From Costertonia aggregata (GTDB lineage: Bacteria > Bacteroidota > Bacteroidia > Flavobacteriales > Flavobacteriaceae), in the NCBI RefSeq assembly GCF_013402795.1, contig NZ_CP058595.1, positions 1 to 64,000 of the forward strand: a DNA stretch of 64,000 bases, in the 5' to 3' direction. Shown here one piece after another: positions 2,914 to 62,960 of the stretch (positions are counted from its first letter, which is position 1; each line of letters starts with the position of its first letter). Below the pieces are notes generated by a model that was not told the DNA's origin, did not search any database, and saw nothing but the letters and a program-made list of their open reading frames with translations. The translations under genes were made by a program, and so were the position numbers.

Positions 2914-3408
2914 ATGAAAAATAGCATGTTAAAAAAACTGTGGATAGTTTTATTGGTGGCACTCAATATAGGCTGTGATCAAGTTTCTAAAGAGATTGTT
3001 CGCGATACCGTATTGCCCATGGAATATATTCAGGTTGCAGGCGATTATTTTATTTTGACAAACGTAGAAAATACGGGTGCCATGTTGGGTTTTGGTCAGG
3101 ATTTCACACCCATTATCAAACTTATTTTCTTGCAAGCATTACCCGTTTTGGTGTTGTGTATTCTTTTGATCAATATTTTAATGAAAAAGAATTTAGAAAA
3201 AGCTTCCATTTTGGCATTTGCCTTCGTTATCGGTGGTGGTATCGGTAATTTGATCGATAGAATCGCATATGGTTCAGTAACTGATTTTTTTCAGATAAAA
3301 CTGGGCTTTTTTAAAACAGGCATCTTTAACATGGCCGATGTATCGGTTACGGTAGGTGTACTATTGATTTTGTTTTTAAGCATAAGGCACGAAAAAATTA
3401 TTTTGTAG
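2914..3408 (+). CDS. lspA: lipoprotein signal peptidase (signal peptidase II)
   Basis: Inner-membrane aspartyl protease that removes the signal peptide from prolipoproteins, a heavily used activity here given how many lipoproteins the window encodes. Four hydrophobic segments are present. The two catalytic aspartates lie in the conserved boxes GNLIDRI-(4 residues)-VTDFF and FNMADVSV. The frame is open from a TTG at 2899; I chose the ATG at 2914, and a further ATG at 2926 sits closest to the first membrane helix and is equally possible. It follows panB by under 40 bases, and its TAG overlaps the GTG start of the next gene by one base, suggesting translational coupling. Confidence 0.94.
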   Translation: MKNSMLKKLWIVLLVALNIGCDQVSKEIVRDTVLPMEYIQVAGDYFILTNVENTGAMLGFGQDFTPIIKLIFLQALPVLVLCILLINILMKKNLEKASILAFAFVIGGGIGNLIDRIAYGSVTDFFQIKLGFFKTGIFNMADVSVTVGVLLILFLSIRHEKIIL

Positions 3409-4103
3409 TGGGGAGAAAAATCATTTCCACGCCGCAAAATCTTCAGGTAATCTATGAAGACAATCATTTGATTGCTATAAACAAACGCCCCGGAGATATT
3501 GTTCAAGGTGACAAAACGGGTGACGTTCCCTTGAGTGAAGTGGTCAAGCAATACCTTAAAATAAAATACGACAAGCCGGGCAATGTGTATTTGGGTGTTG
3601 CCCATAGGTTGGATAGGCCCACCTCGGGCATTGTCGTTTTTTCTAAAACGTCAAAAGCGCTGCCAAGATTAAATAAACTGTTCGCTGAAAAAGAAGCTCA
3701 GAAAACCTACTGGGCCATAGTGAAGACCTTGCCCAAAGAACATAGTGGAACATTGGTACACTGGCTCAAACGAAACCCGAAACAAAATAAGTCGTATGCT
3801 TATGCGAACGAAACAAAAGATAGTAAAAAAGCAATTTTGGAATACACTGTCATCAAAAAGTTGGATAATTACACCCTTTTGGAAATTGACCTAAAGACAG
3901 GTCGGCACCACCAAATACGTTCCCAATTGTCTTTTATAGGCTCCCCGATAAAAGGAGACCTTAAATATGGCTTTGATAGAAGTAATCCCGACGGAAGTAT
4001 ACATTTACATGCGAGAAAACTTTCATTTATACATCCCATAAAAAAAGAAAAAATAGAACTTATGGCCCCTGTGCCCAAGGATGTTATTTGGAACGCTTGT
4101 TAA
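3408..4103 (+). CDS. RluA-family pseudouridine synthase
   Basis: Isomerises uridine to pseudouridine in RNA. The core catalytic motif HRLDRPTSG is at residues 66-74 with the nucleophile D69, followed by the TGRHHQIR box typical of the RluA branch. There is no N-terminal S4 domain, so the 231-residue protein is the compact form common in Flavobacteriia; the rRNA or tRNA target cannot be told from sequence. The start is a GTG overlapping the lspA stop codon by one base, and no in-frame ATG follows before the core fold, so GTG is very probably used. Confidence 0.92.
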   Translation: MGRKIISTPQNLQVIYEDNHLIAINKRPGDIVQGDKTGDVPLSEVVKQYLKIKYDKPGNVYLGVAHRLDRPTSGIVVFSKTSKALPRLNKLFAEKEAQKTYWAIVKTLPKEHSGTLVHWLKRNPKQNKSYAYANETKDSKKAILEYTVIKKLDNYTLLEIDLKTGRHHQIRSQLSFIGSPIKGDLKYGFDRSNPDGSIHLHARKLSFIHPIKKEKIELMAPVPKDVIWNAC

Positions 4104-4192
4104 TTATTGCTTACTTTGGCATGCCTTTATTCGTGAGGGTTTTCAGATAAGAAAAACCATATTTTGGCTTACTTCATTAAACACTATACCAA

Positions 4193-4720
4193 ATGAAAAG
4201 AATGCTTGTAATATTATGTATGATGCTCATTGCTTCCTGCAGCAGCTACAACTCTGTAGATACTTTTTATAACGCTCATAAAAACGATAACAAAGTAACC
4301 GCAGTTAGGGTACCCCAGTTTATGTTGACCATGATAAGCGGCATCTCTCCCGAAATGAAAGCCATTGTAGGCAACACAAAGGATTTGAGATATATGCAAT
4401 TTCCCAGTACCACACCTTCGAGAACTCAATTTCTGAATGAACAAATGAACGGTATCACCGGAAACTCGTTCATAGAGGTCTTTCGTAAGAACGATAGGTT
4501 GAAACGTAATGTGGTGTCCATTCGTGAAAAGCGAAATACCGTTAAGGAAATCCTTATTTATAACAATAATAATGTTAGCGGCTCTTTTTTGTATTTTAAT
4601 GGGAATTTTGACCCTGTAAAAGTTAGGGAAATGGCAAAAAACGAGCAGTTTCGTACTCTGGGCGATGGGCTTATCGGCCAATTTGGCTCAGGAACGCCTG
4701 GGGTTATCAATAATCGATAA
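4193..4720 (+). CDS. DUF4252-type lipoprotein
   Basis: A 175-residue exported lipoprotein with a signal peptide and lipobox LIASC (acylated cysteine C16). The rest agrees with the Bacteroidota DUF4252 family: small, mixed alpha/beta, with a conserved central stretch and a C-terminal region ending in LGDGLIGQFG. The function of the family is unknown. It lies 89 bases after the pseudouridine synthase gene, so it may have its own promoter. It converges with the next gene, leaving 14 bases and no hairpin between them. Confidence 0.78.
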   Translation: MKRMLVILCMMLIASCSSYNSVDTFYNAHKNDNKVTAVRVPQFMLTMISGISPEMKAIVGNTKDLRYMQFPSTTPSRTQFLNEQMNGITGNSFIEVFRKNDRLKRNVVSIREKRNTVKEILIYNNNNVSGSFLYFNGNFDPVKVREMAKNEQFRTLGDGLIGQFGSGTPGVINNR

Positions 4721-59333: not shown

Positions 59334-60224
59334 TTACACACTCACCTTGACAAAAGGTTTGATAGCCTCTGAGATTTTTTCTTTCAAAATATTTGAGGCT
59401 TCTACCAAGGGAAGACGAACGGTTGCCGAAGAAAGCCCTAAGGTTTCGAATACTGTTTTTATGCCTGCGGGATTCCCCTCTTCAAAAATAAGTTCCATCA
59501 ACTCTGTAAGTTGATAGTGGGTTTGATAAGCACTTTCTTGTTCGCCATTGAGCCCACTACGAACCATTTTTGAAAACTCGGACGGTAATCCCTGACCCAA
59601 TACCGATATAACGCCTGATCCACCTGCCAAAACCGTTGGCAAAGCTGTAATATCATCTCCCGAAATCACATGAAATCCCGTCGGCTTATGCTTGATTATT
59701 TGCATAATCTGTACCAAATCGCCTGATGCTTCTTTTACCGCAATGATATTTTCAAAATCATTTGCTAAACGCAACGTGGTTTTAGGCAAGATGTTACTGC
59801 CGGTTCTACCGGGTACATTGTACACAATAATCGGTAAAGGGGAACTTTCAGAAATTGCCTTGAAATGTTGGTAGATACCTTCTTGGGTGGGCTTATTGTA
59901 GTAAGGTGATACGGAAAGTATACCATCAAATTCCTGTAATCGTAATGTTTTCAATTCCTCACAGACCAAATGTGTATTGTTACCACCCACACCTAAAACG
60001 AGTGGCAACCTACCTGCATTTACGGTCACAACGGTATCCATCACTAATTGCTTTTCCGCTTTACCCAAGGTAACCGATTCTCCCGTAGTGCCCAATACCA
60101 CCAAATAATCAACTCCACCATCAATACTATGCGCTACGATGTTTTGCAGTGCATCAACGTCTACGGACAAATCTTTTTTAAAAGGTGTGACCAATGCTAC
60201 ACCCGTGCCGACAAACTTTTCCAT
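59334..60224 (-). CDS. dapA: 4-hydroxy-tetrahydrodipicolinate synthase
   Basis: Condenses pyruvate with aspartate semialdehyde, entry to lysine and diaminopimelate synthesis. 296 residues. T46-T47 in GTTGES, Y135, R140 and the Schiff-base K164 (IAVKEASGD) are all present at positions shifted by two or three from E. coli. It starts one base inside the end of the DUF6913 gene and there is a 138-base gap to bamD. Confidence 0.97.
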
Positions 60225-60760
60225 TATTCAATTTCGTTGAGAACGGACAAATATTTTTTCAGTTCTTTCTTAAAGGTCTTAAAATCGCTCAAAGGTGTAT
60301 TTATGATAAGATCGTTATATGCTTTATCCATCTCACCAAAACCTACTTTGATACGAGCTTTTGTCTGTAAGGTCATTAATTGCATCAACAAACTTTCAGA
60401 ATTGTAATAGTTTACCAATACATCATATTCCCGACTCAAAAACTCCAAGGCATAACTGTTTTCAATAGCCCCGTTCCACCCCAAATCCTTATCGGAGAAA
60501 ACCGGTGTGGCATATGGTGAGTTTTTGTCATAATAATTTTTATAGCCAATAATCTTGACTGCATTGGGCCTTAATTTGAACTCGTCAATAAATTCAAAAA
60601 AGAGATTTGCATCATCAAAAGAATCCAAATCCACTATACAGGCCAAAGAGGTTATCCCCTTGGAACGCATAACGGGCGGAGCAGGATGGGCAAGTGCTTC
60701 CTTCAAGAATTTTAGACCGGATTTGTATTTAAATTTATCCTTAATTCCCTTTAAAAACAT
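60224..60760 (-). CDS. DUF6913-like conserved protein
   Basis: A 178-residue cytoplasmic protein, conserved across Flavobacteriia and to my recollection annotated DUF6913. Landmarks are [22 protein letters not shown], a strand-turn pattern [34 protein letters not shown] and [17 protein letters not shown]. No signal peptide. Its stop codon overlaps the dapA start by one base. Function unknown. Confidence 0.7.
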
Positions 60761-60826: not shown

Positions 60827-61591
60827 ATGATTTTAAAAACACAACATTTTGTTATATTCATAACATTAATTTTAGGTTTATCCTGCAACAGAAAAGAACA
60901 ACGCCTAAGTAGCATAAGAGCCGAACAGATAGCAATAAAAGACTCCCTCCCGGAAACCGATACCATTCTGGAATTCATAACACCCTATAAAAAAAGAATA
61001 GACTACATATTGGACAGTACTTTGGCTTTTGCAGCTAAGACCATATCTAAAGATGATGGCTTGCTCAATACAACTGCGGGAAATTTGCTCGCTGATATTG
61101 TGCTTTCAGAAGCCAATCCTATTTTTAAAACGCGTACCGGAAAAAATATAGATTTTGTTCTTTTAAACCACGGTGGTATTCGCTCAATTATTTCCAAAGG
61201 GCACGTATCTGCCCGAACAGCATATGAGATAATGCCGTTTGAAAACACCGTCGTCGTTGTAGAGCTAACCGGTAAGTCGGTAAGGGAGTTGACCTCTTTT
61301 TTGATACAATCAGGACGGCCCCACCCTATCGCTGGGATACAGATTCTTTTGGACAAGAACAACGGTTTGGAATCGATAACCATACAGGGAGAACCTTTTG
61401 ATGAAAACCGTAATTACTATGTGGCCACATCAAACTATTTGGTCACTGGGGGCGACGATATGGGATTTTTTGCAGAAAAGGTCTCGGTCGTGGAGACAGA
61501 TTATCTCATCCGAAATACGATAATAGATTATTTTAAAAAAGTAGATACCATAGCACCTACCGTGGATGATCGCTTTATGAAATTGAAGTAA
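60827..61591 (+). CDS. 5'-nucleotidase C-terminal domain lipoprotein
   Basis: 254 residues: a lipoprotein signal (LILGLSC, C20) and the C-terminal, substrate-binding domain of UshA-type nucleotidases: GLLNTTAGNLLADIVL, LLNHGGIRSII, EIMPFENTVVVVELTG and the nucleobase-stacking NYLVTGGDDMG. The catalytic metallophosphatase half is the next gene, in reverse order to the single-chain enzyme. The stop overlaps that start (TAATG). The pair should act together in the periplasm or at the cell surface. Confidence 0.9.
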   Translation: MILKTQHFVIFITLILGLSCNRKEQRLSSIRAEQIAIKDSLPETDTILEFITPYKKRIDYILDSTLAFAAKTISKDDGLLNTTAGNLLADIVLSEANPIFKTRTGKNIDFVLLNHGGIRSIISKGHVSARTAYEIMPFENTVVVVELTGKSVRELTSFLIQSGRPHPIAGIQILLDKNNGLESITIQGEPFDENRNYYVATSNYLVTGGDDMGFFAEKVSVVETDYLIRNTIIDYFKKVDTIAPTVDDRFMKLK

Positions 61592-62499
61592 TGGATAGAC
61601 GAAAATTTATATCAAAAACAACGGCTTCAACGGCTTTTTTAGGCTTAGGAGGTTTTTCATTGAACTCTTGCACAGGAGCTCAAAAGCACATAACCATATT
61701 ACATACCAATGATGTGCATAGCCACGTTGATGCCTTTCCGCAAAATCACTCCAGATATCCTAACCTAGGTGGGCTTTCCCGTAGGGCCAGCTTAGTGGAA
61801 ACTATACGCAATGAAAACCCGAATACCCTGTTGTTTGATGCAGGTGATATTTTTCAGGGAACTCCCTACTTTAATTTTTACGGCGGAGAAATCGAGTTTA
61901 AACTAATGAGCATACTAAAATATGATGCCGCAACCCTTGGTAATCATGATTTTGATAATGGTATCGGTGGGCTGTTCACACAATTGCCCAATGCGAAATT
62001 TGATTTGATAACGGCCAATTATGATTTTACCAATACCGTTATGAACGGTAAAACAAAGCCTTACAAGGTTTATGTATTAAACGGACTTAGAATTGGAGTC
62101 TATGGTTTGGGAATACAATTGGAAGGTCTTGTGACCAAAAAATTATATAAGGAAACCAAATATTTAAACCCCTATGAAATTGCCTTGGACAGCGAACGCA
62201 AATTGAAAGAAGAAGAAAAATGTGATTTGATTATTTGCCTTTCCCACTTGGGTTATACTTATGAAAATGAGCAAAGGCCCAATGATCTCAAACTCGCATC
62301 AAAAACCGATTACACCAACTTGATCATAGGTGGCCATACCCATACTTTTTTGGACAAACCTACTATACGTGAAAACAGAAAAGGAAATCAGGTATTGATA
62401 AATCAAGTGGGATGTTTTGGAATCAACTTAGGTCGAATAGACTTTTATTTTGATTCAAAAAATGAGGTCAATGCGCAAGGAGTTTCCATAAAGGTTTGA
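61591..62499 (+). CDS. 5'-nucleotidase metallophosphatase domain, Tat lipoprotein
   Basis: 302 residues: Tat-type signal MDRRKFISK followed by a hydrophobic segment and lipobox LNSC (C27). The dinuclear metallophosphatase motifs are complete: HTNDVHSHVD, DAGDIFQG, LGNHDFDNG and GGHTHTFLD. It lacks the C-terminal nucleotide-binding domain, which is encoded by the gene before it. The start overlaps that gene's stop by one base, so translation is probably coupled. Confidence 0.92.
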   Translation: MDRRKFISKTTASTAFLGLGGFSLNSCTGAQKHITILHTNDVHSHVDAFPQNHSRYPNLGGLSRRASLVETIRNENPNTLLFDAGDIFQGTPYFNFYGGEIEFKLMSILKYDAATLGNHDFDNGIGGLFTQLPNAKFDLITANYDFTNTVMNGKTKPYKVYVLNGLRIGVYGLGIQLEGLVTKKLYKETKYLNPYEIALDSERKLKEEEKCDLIICLSHLGYTYENEQRPNDLKLASKTDYTNLIIGGHTHTFLDKPTIRENRKGNQVLINQVGCFGINLGRIDFYFDSKNEVNAQGVSIKV

Positions 62500-62504
62500 T
62501 AGCG

Positions 62505-62960
62505 ATGCTTTCTTTGATCAGAACAACAAATACAAATCGAGACTTTATAAAATTGGTCGTTCAACTTGATACAGATCTCGCCCAAAGGGATGGGGAAGAC
62601 CACGGTTTTTATGATCAATTCAACGGTATCGAAGGCCTAAACCATACCATTGTTGCCTATCAAAACAAAAAACCGATCGGCTGTGGTGCCCTAAAGCAAT
62701 TCGATGGTGATACCGTAGAGATAAAACGTATGTACACTGTACCCAAAGCAAGGGGCAAAGGTTTAGCGACATCAATTCTACAGGCTTTAGAGGTTTGGGC
62801 AAAAGAACTGGGGTATACCCACTGTATATTGGAAACCGGCAAAAAACAACCTGAAGCCTTGGCACTGTACAGAAAAAGTAGCTACCACATTATTCCCAAT
62901 TACGGACAATATTCAGGCATTGAAAATAGCATATGCTTTCAAAAGTGCATCAATAACTAA
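62505..62960 (+). CDS. GNAT-family N-acetyltransferase
   Basis: 151 residues from the ATG at 62505; a TTG at 62496 overlaps the preceding stop and is less likely. GNAT fold with the acetyl-CoA loop RMYTVPKARGKGLATSIL (Q/RxxGxG/A pattern), LETGKKQPEALALYRKSSY and the C-terminal strand. Substrate unknown. Ends eleven bases inside the end of the convergent gene to its right. Confidence 0.88.
   Translation: MLSLIRTTNTNRDFIKLVVQLDTDLAQRDGEDHGFYDQFNGIEGLNHTIVAYQNKKPIGCGALKQFDGDTVEIKRMYTVPKARGKGLATSILQALEVWAKELGYTHCILETGKKQPEALALYRKSSYHIIPNYGQYSGIENSICFQKCINN

Follow-up and report, generated by a model that had tools for sequence, protein, structure and literature searches.

The question raised by this locus is whether two short, overlapping genes encode one 5'-nucleotidase whose substrate-binding and metal-binding domains are made as separate polypeptides, carry different export signals and come together outside the inner membrane. 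The locus lies near the end of the window, the whole stretch of 64,000 nucleotides from Costertonia aggregata (contig NZ_CP058595.1) that was analysed. The preliminary description had proposed that the enzyme is split here into two genes placed in reversed order, and both points hold: each of the two open reading frames contains one complete domain, with the C-terminal domain gene ahead of the N-terminal one (Table 1). The product of the upstream gene, the C half, matches the Pfam family 5_nucleotid_C with an E-value of 4e-22, and that of the downstream gene, the N half, matches Metallophos with an E-value of 3e-17. The last A of the TAA stop codon of the C half is also the A of the ATG start codon of the N half, an overlap that possibly couples the translation of the two halves. 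The C half is laid out as a lipobox (LGLS-C20), a tether of about 25 residues, a linker-like helix spanning residues 45–63 and then the PF02872 domain. The genome consists of one contig of 3.9 Mb in which this C half is the only PF02872 match, thus leaving the N half without another obvious partner of the C-domain kind, and a TatC gene is present. Upstream of the pair lies a divergent DUF6913 gene (60224–60760), and a GNAT acetyltransferase reading frame (62496–62960) overlaps its end.

Table 1 Features of the split 5'-nucleotidase locus, in window coordinates.
Feature	Position	Strand	Remarks
C half, 5'-nucleotidase C-terminal (substrate-binding) domain gene	60827..61591	+	254 aa, PF02872
N half, dimetal metallophosphoesterase domain gene	61591..62499	+	302 aa, PF00149
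Sec-type lipoprotein signal of C half	60827..60886	+	hydrophobicity 2.29, best 14 residues
Tat-like lipoprotein signal of N half	61591..61671	+	MDRRKFIS..., hydrophobicity 1.17, SLNS-C27
TAATG, C-half stop / N-half start overlap	61589..61593	+	one shared base

Alignment of the two products to solved structures (2z1a and 3ivd) places the cut between the halves at the interdomain linker of single-chain enzymes. Residues 12–295 of the N half align on residues 9–296 of the Thermus protein 2z1a, the N part of the single-chain enzyme, while residues 48–243 of the C half align on residues 295–488 of 3ivd, the C part. Structure models, in which each half was predicted as a single chain, have a mean pLDDT of 87.8 and a TMq of 0.80 to 2z1a for the N half and of 91.5 and 0.67, respectively, for the C half, and each model also matches UshA and CD73. 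The N half displays the metal ligands D41, H43, D86, N118, H219, H249 and H251 together with the dyad H119/D122, roles that we presume from homology, and all nine residues are kept in 30/30 aligned N halves. In the C half, the positions equivalent to UshA F429 and F498 are each aromatic in 26/26 aligned sequences, of which 25 retain the GGIR arginine; the C alignment leaves out four of the 30 loci of the N alignment (L078, L079, L080 and L090), in which the start of the C half is unclear. The roles of F429, F498 and H117 in UshA are described in the available part of PMC7922932. Identity to the window protein is higher for the N halves (38–73%) than for the C halves (20–61%). The pair has in common with enzymes of the E. 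coli UshA and Thermus 2z1a type (PF00149 plus PF02872) the two domains, the dimetal ligands, the catalytic His/Asp, the aromatic base sandwich and the overall folds. In contrast to these enzymes, which are single chains with both domains on one polypeptide in N–C order, the window pair consists of two polypeptides without a covalent linker, with the gene order C then N and with different export signals. CpdB, NadN and YfkN-type nucleotidases have the same two domains and their profiles match the pair, but they are single chains and the pair stays far below the score cut-offs curated for them. The N half is also matched by the SoxB profile, with an E-value of 6e-19. SoxB, PhoX and PhoD, which are Tat-exported phosphoesterases, resemble the N half in that a twin-arginine-type signal precedes a phosphoesterase domain that binds metal; their whole enzyme is on one chain, and none is known as a split 5'-nucleotidase.

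The two-gene order was searched across Bacteroidota, and it recurs among the relatives covered. PF02872 is found in 155/296 phylum genomes, and the phylum sample comprises the 60 loci, among the matches listed, whose open frame does not exceed 383 aa, the window's own locus being excluded. A metal-half gene follows the C half on the same strand in 59 of these 60 loci, and this excludes chance as the source of the pairing. The one locus not counted as a pair (L091, genome G047) was rejected because it falls among the single-chain enzymes in the N tree. With the window included, the gap from C half to N half ranges from -23 to 614 bases and is at most 20 bases in 36/60 pairs. Named genomes scanned with the alignment of N halves gave 584 candidates, and among the best 80 of these 79 loci have a C half, in the order C then N; the exception, in Sinomicrobium oceani (L114), holds an N half with no C half within the locus. 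The named records with an N half among these best 80 of 584 include Flavobacteriaceae, Chryseobacterium, Pontibacter, Hymenobacter, Flammeovirga, Taibaiella and Saprospiraceae.

Within the window's own family, sampled as 149 genomes with one per genus and with a split-type C half called at E <1e-60, the C half is found in 110 genomes, the N half in 109, both in 109 and neither in 39. The single genome with only a C half (G416) has its match stopping 5 bases before the contig end. The halves are adjacent in the order C then N in 107 of the 109 genomes, with a median of 14 bases between the matches. Two genomes, G300 (contig C14) and G373 (C33), keep both halves 3.8 kb and 124 kb apart; thus the pair need not be adjacent, and these two would be natural cases of the halves working in trans. 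A Fisher test on the co-occurrence of the halves gives 3e-35, a value that ignores relatedness and is descriptive only. The 39 pair-less genomes comprise 21 with single-chain enzymes only, 17 without a match and one (G296) with a weak partial match. Relatives with one fused enzyme, which had been named as a counter-case to the split, do not refute it: in both trees described below they lie apart from the split rows. The single-chain proteins in the fetched loci are all in N–C order (50/50, with 0 in C–N order). That the two genes are fragments of one decayed or frameshifted enzyme has a negligible probability: nothing beyond the split itself speaks for it, and it is ruled out by the reversed order, by the separate start and export signal of each half and by the conservation of the arrangement in the phylum sample. 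Similarly, a fused product made by frameshifting or readthrough at TAATG was rejected on the export signal that the N half has of its own, on the spread of the gaps between the genes and on the two genomes in which the halves lie far apart.

The two halves of the window differ in their N-termini, as the preliminary description had stated. The N half begins with DRRKFIS followed by a weakly hydrophobic h-region and SLNS-C, a twin-arginine-like signal, while the C half has LGLS-C after a strongly hydrophobic segment, an ordinary Sec lipoprotein signal. The counter-case in which both halves follow Sec was looked for, and with a hydrophobicity of 1.17 against 2.29 in the C half the N half does not resemble a Sec substrate. 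The same contrast extends to the relatives. A twin-basic, Tat-like motif is present in 134/138 distinct split N-termini (113 RR and 21 of the RK, RS or KR types), a count that, like that for the single chains below, includes close relatives and is not one of independent cases. The remaining four N-termini are Sec-like in L051, L075 and L193 and disrupted in L170. The last of these, from Flavobacterium covae AL-02-36 (~3200–4271), has its N-half gene out of frame near the start, with the signal missing from the frame, a break that reflects either decay or a sequencing error. By sample, RR is found in 44/60 and RK or RS in 14/60 N halves of the phylum sample plus the window, and the C-then-N pairs among the best 80 of 584 named loci include 71 with RR, 7 with RK and 1 with neither, the locus without a C half having RR as well. 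The mean hydrophobicity over the best 14 residues is 1.40 for the N halves (s.d. 0.24, n=58) against 2.31 for the C halves (s.d. 0.30, n=54), averages that omit two Bacteroides-type pairs as well as four C halves whose start is unclear. Neither RR.F nor RR.Y occurs within the first 25 residues of any of the 60 C halves of the phylum sample plus the window.

Profile models of Tat signals agree in part with this division. The Pfam model PF10518 matches 6/30 N halves and 0/26 C halves, and the NCBIfam model TIGR01409 matches 11/30 N halves and is absent for the 26 C halves among the families listed (25 of 28). The window N half itself matches neither model up to E=1; this, together with the RK or RS variants of the phylum sample, which are weaker motifs than RR, counts against the Tat part of the reading. 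The presence of TatC is uninformative, since 295/296 phylum genomes have it. Judged from these N-terminal motifs, the N half would use Tat. A clear Tat-like signal was recognized by eye in 2/53 single-chain enzymes, the set including L198, L189, L024 and L032. The two are L181 (G190 C36, from the Bacteroidota sample) and L198 (a plasmid record of Leptolyngbya sp. BL0902), both Tat-like chains in N–C order, so that the split is not a precondition for Tat export. L009, whose RR precedes a stretch that is hydrophobic and Sec-like, was not counted as Tat-like; L189, L024, L027 and L198 are single chains whose C domain falls below threshold and do not enter the split count.

Lipid anchoring of both halves, also claimed at the outset, applies to the window and, among its relatives, to a minority; in the others only the C half has a lipidation cysteine. 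The C half cysteine is conserved: C20 is found in 26/26 aligned C halves, and a lipobox cysteine is recognized in 53 of 60 C halves by pattern and in 4 more by eye, with the start unclear in L080 and L090 and the cysteine absent from L071, which lies outside the 26-sequence alignment. For the N half, a lipobox cysteine is present in the window and in 4/59 pairs of the phylum sample (L037, L059, L076 and L086); a pattern match in L051 lies before the h-region and was discounted. Among the best 80 of 584 named loci, 12 N halves have such a cysteine by pattern, including those of Muricauda, Maribacter, Eudoraea and Galbibacter. The residues after the lipid cysteines (NRKEQ and TGAQK) are not acidic, which would favour the periplasmic face, judging by the surface-export signal of Bacteroidota.

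Trees of the two domains group the halves consistently. With support of 100/99, the N tree (110 N domains) brings the 61 true split rows together in a single group, and the C tree (105 C domains) does so, again at 100/99, for all of its 61 split rows; both trees are drawn midpoint-rooted, so that speaking of a clade assumes a root among the fused rows, and L198 is not included. Because of L091, the label "split" costs two changes in the N tree. Since each half groups apart from the sampled single-chain enzymes, the split looks, from these trees, like one old event. The Bacteroides-type rows (L051, L075 and L193) form one group in both trees (100/100). The N tree nests them in a supported subset of 46 rows within the split group, and the C tree places them within that group without a supported position. 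These pairs keep the order C then N, and the two Bacteroides-type N halves in the alignment have the same metal ligands as the other pairs. Their N signals are nevertheless strongly hydrophobic and of Sec type (2.1 and 2.5 for two of the set), and TatC is present in both Bacteroides-type genomes checked. Thus, the metal ligands do not determine the export route, and Tat is not essential to the split, which this branch has kept with a Sec signal. The Bacteroides finegoldii pair (L193, NZ_OY725905.1), annotated as the two genes "5'-nucleotidase" and "metallophosphatase", shares with the window its tree groups and gene order but differs in its Sec-type N signal. The simplest history suggested by the N tree would be a split with Tat first, followed by one loss of Tat. 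The B. finegoldii record is labelled "plasmid 3" and carries rplS, for ribosomal protein L19, beside the pair; it may be a mislabelled chromosomal piece.

Taken from sequence comparisons, the most probable reading, to which we give a probability of roughly 0.7, is that the pair forms a two-subunit 5'-nucleotidase of the UshA kind whose halves leave the cytoplasm by two routes and assemble outside. The near-obligate co-occurrence of the halves, the order C then N, the intact key residues and the two signal types argue for it. The C half would come first, pass through Sec unfolded and become anchored as a lipoprotein. Translated from the overlapping next gene, the N half would fold round its dimetal centre and be exported by Tat, and the halves would meet in the periplasm. 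There the C half would hold the nucleotide between its two aromatic residues and offer the phosphate to the N-half metal site. We infer both the physical assembly of the halves and the substrate. Assembly outside the inner membrane is suggested by the conserved pairing and by the behaviour of isolated domains, which lose nucleotidase activity or are inactive: in the available part of PMC8475336 the N domain of UshA, on its own, acts on ATP, ADP and pNPP and not on AMP, and in that of PMC7922932 the CpdB C domain alone is inactive.

The same work on isolated domains bears on a different reading, in which the N half works independently as a phosphodiesterase or phosphatase. The C half would then be a nucleotide-binding lipoprotein that only tunes or localises it, and no obligate heterodimer would serve as a 5'-nucleotidase. 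The isolated N domains of UshA and CpdB are active on ATP, ADP, 2',3'-cyclic nucleotides or artificial substrates in the accessible text of PMC8475336 and PMC7922932, the N halves are the more conserved of the two, and the Sinomicrobium locus lacks a C half to go with its N half. However, this reading leaves the near-perfect co-occurrence and adjacency of the halves unaccounted for, together with the retention in the C half of the base-stacking aromatics and the GGIR arginine, and it is quite unlikely. For the two-subunit enzyme, the reason for two export routes may be sought in two candidates, one being that the metal is chosen before export and the other that the folded metal half is kept from the nucleotide-binding half, so that no complete nucleotidase exists inside the cell. 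The former, which extends the cytoplasmic loading put forward in the preliminary description, would have Tat serve the loading of the right metal in the cytoplasm, the enzyme being split so that the metal half alone needs Tat. This is a doubtful proposal that nevertheless fits the Tat-like signals on the split metal half, their absence from the C half and their rarity in single-chain relatives, as well as the known Tat-exported phosphoesterases PhoX, PhoD and SoxB. It is opposed by the Bacteroides-type pairs, with the same ligands and a Sec-type signal, and by the 51/53 single-chain relatives of the same fold without a Tat-like signal, which indicate that metal loading in the periplasm is possible for this fold.

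The latter candidate, in its strong form, holds that the arrangement is a safety device, the N half leaving folded by Tat and the C half unfolded by Sec so that, on purpose, the complete nucleotidase forms only outside the cytoplasm. Tat carries folded proteins, so that a complete enzyme exported by Tat would fold inside the cell, and a cytoplasmic 5'-nucleotidase is reportedly conditionally lethal in E. coli, going by the title of a paper among the references of PMC8475336. Sending the nucleotide-binding half by Sec would keep the complete enzyme from forming there. If true, the split would make Tat export of a nucleotide-destroying enzyme tolerable across the phylum and would do the job that in E. 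coli falls to the cytoplasmic UshA inhibitor. This explanation is unlikely, and it is weakened by the two single-chain enzymes with Tat-like signals (L181 and L198), the second of which shows a single chain to be compatible with Tat. The lone UshA N domain, moreover, still cleaves ATP and ADP according to the part of PMC8475336 available.

A split, permuted 5'-nucleotidase with two export routes was not found described in the open-licence literature of PubMed Central. Neither the enzyme family nor the twin-arginine route is new; as far as that search reached, the split two-route arrangement is a new form of them. In the available part of a 2023 survey (PMC10454023), Flavobacteriia, Cytophagia, Chitinophagia, Sphingobacteriia and Saprospiria are marked "-" for ushA-like genes, under a rule of a score >150 and a query coverage >70%. 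As far as that part of the survey states its rule, separate halves would tend to miss the 70% coverage, which may explain the gap, and nucleotide-phosphorus scavenging by these Bacteroidota may be under-annotated. The pair is also of mechanistic interest. In the accessible sections of PMC8475336 and PMC8071527, catalysis by UshA requires its domains to make a large rotation about a flexible covalent linker, and a natural linker-free version would be a test of whether that linker matters. If the two-subunit reading is right, the pair would further be a compact case of one active site built from the products of two translocons.

The permuted gene order could have arisen from a gene in N–C order that was duplicated in tandem and then lost the first N and the second C domain, leaving C1–N2, with C1 gaining a new lipoprotein signal. 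Tandem duplication and loss is a standard route to permuted order, and the single origin of each half in the trees and the occurrence of neighbouring full-length copies in the phylum are consistent with it. However, the halves sit beside different sets of fused rows. In the N tree the nearest are L194, L196, L197 and L199, from Bacillota and Deinococcus, plus two rows of family f30 (100/90), and these lack a Tat-like motif; in the C tree they are 19 others, at no more than 84/70. A simple rearrangement would, moreover, give the same outcome, and the duplication route is put forward tentatively, at somewhat less than even odds. Neighbouring full-length copies are seen in two genomes: at L174 (G130 C2) two full-length 5'-nucleotidase genes lie close together, facing each other, and at G093 C15 (223350–225877) two full-length 5'-nucleotidase matches lie on the same strand. 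Gene pairs of these kinds are possible starting material for a permuted pair.
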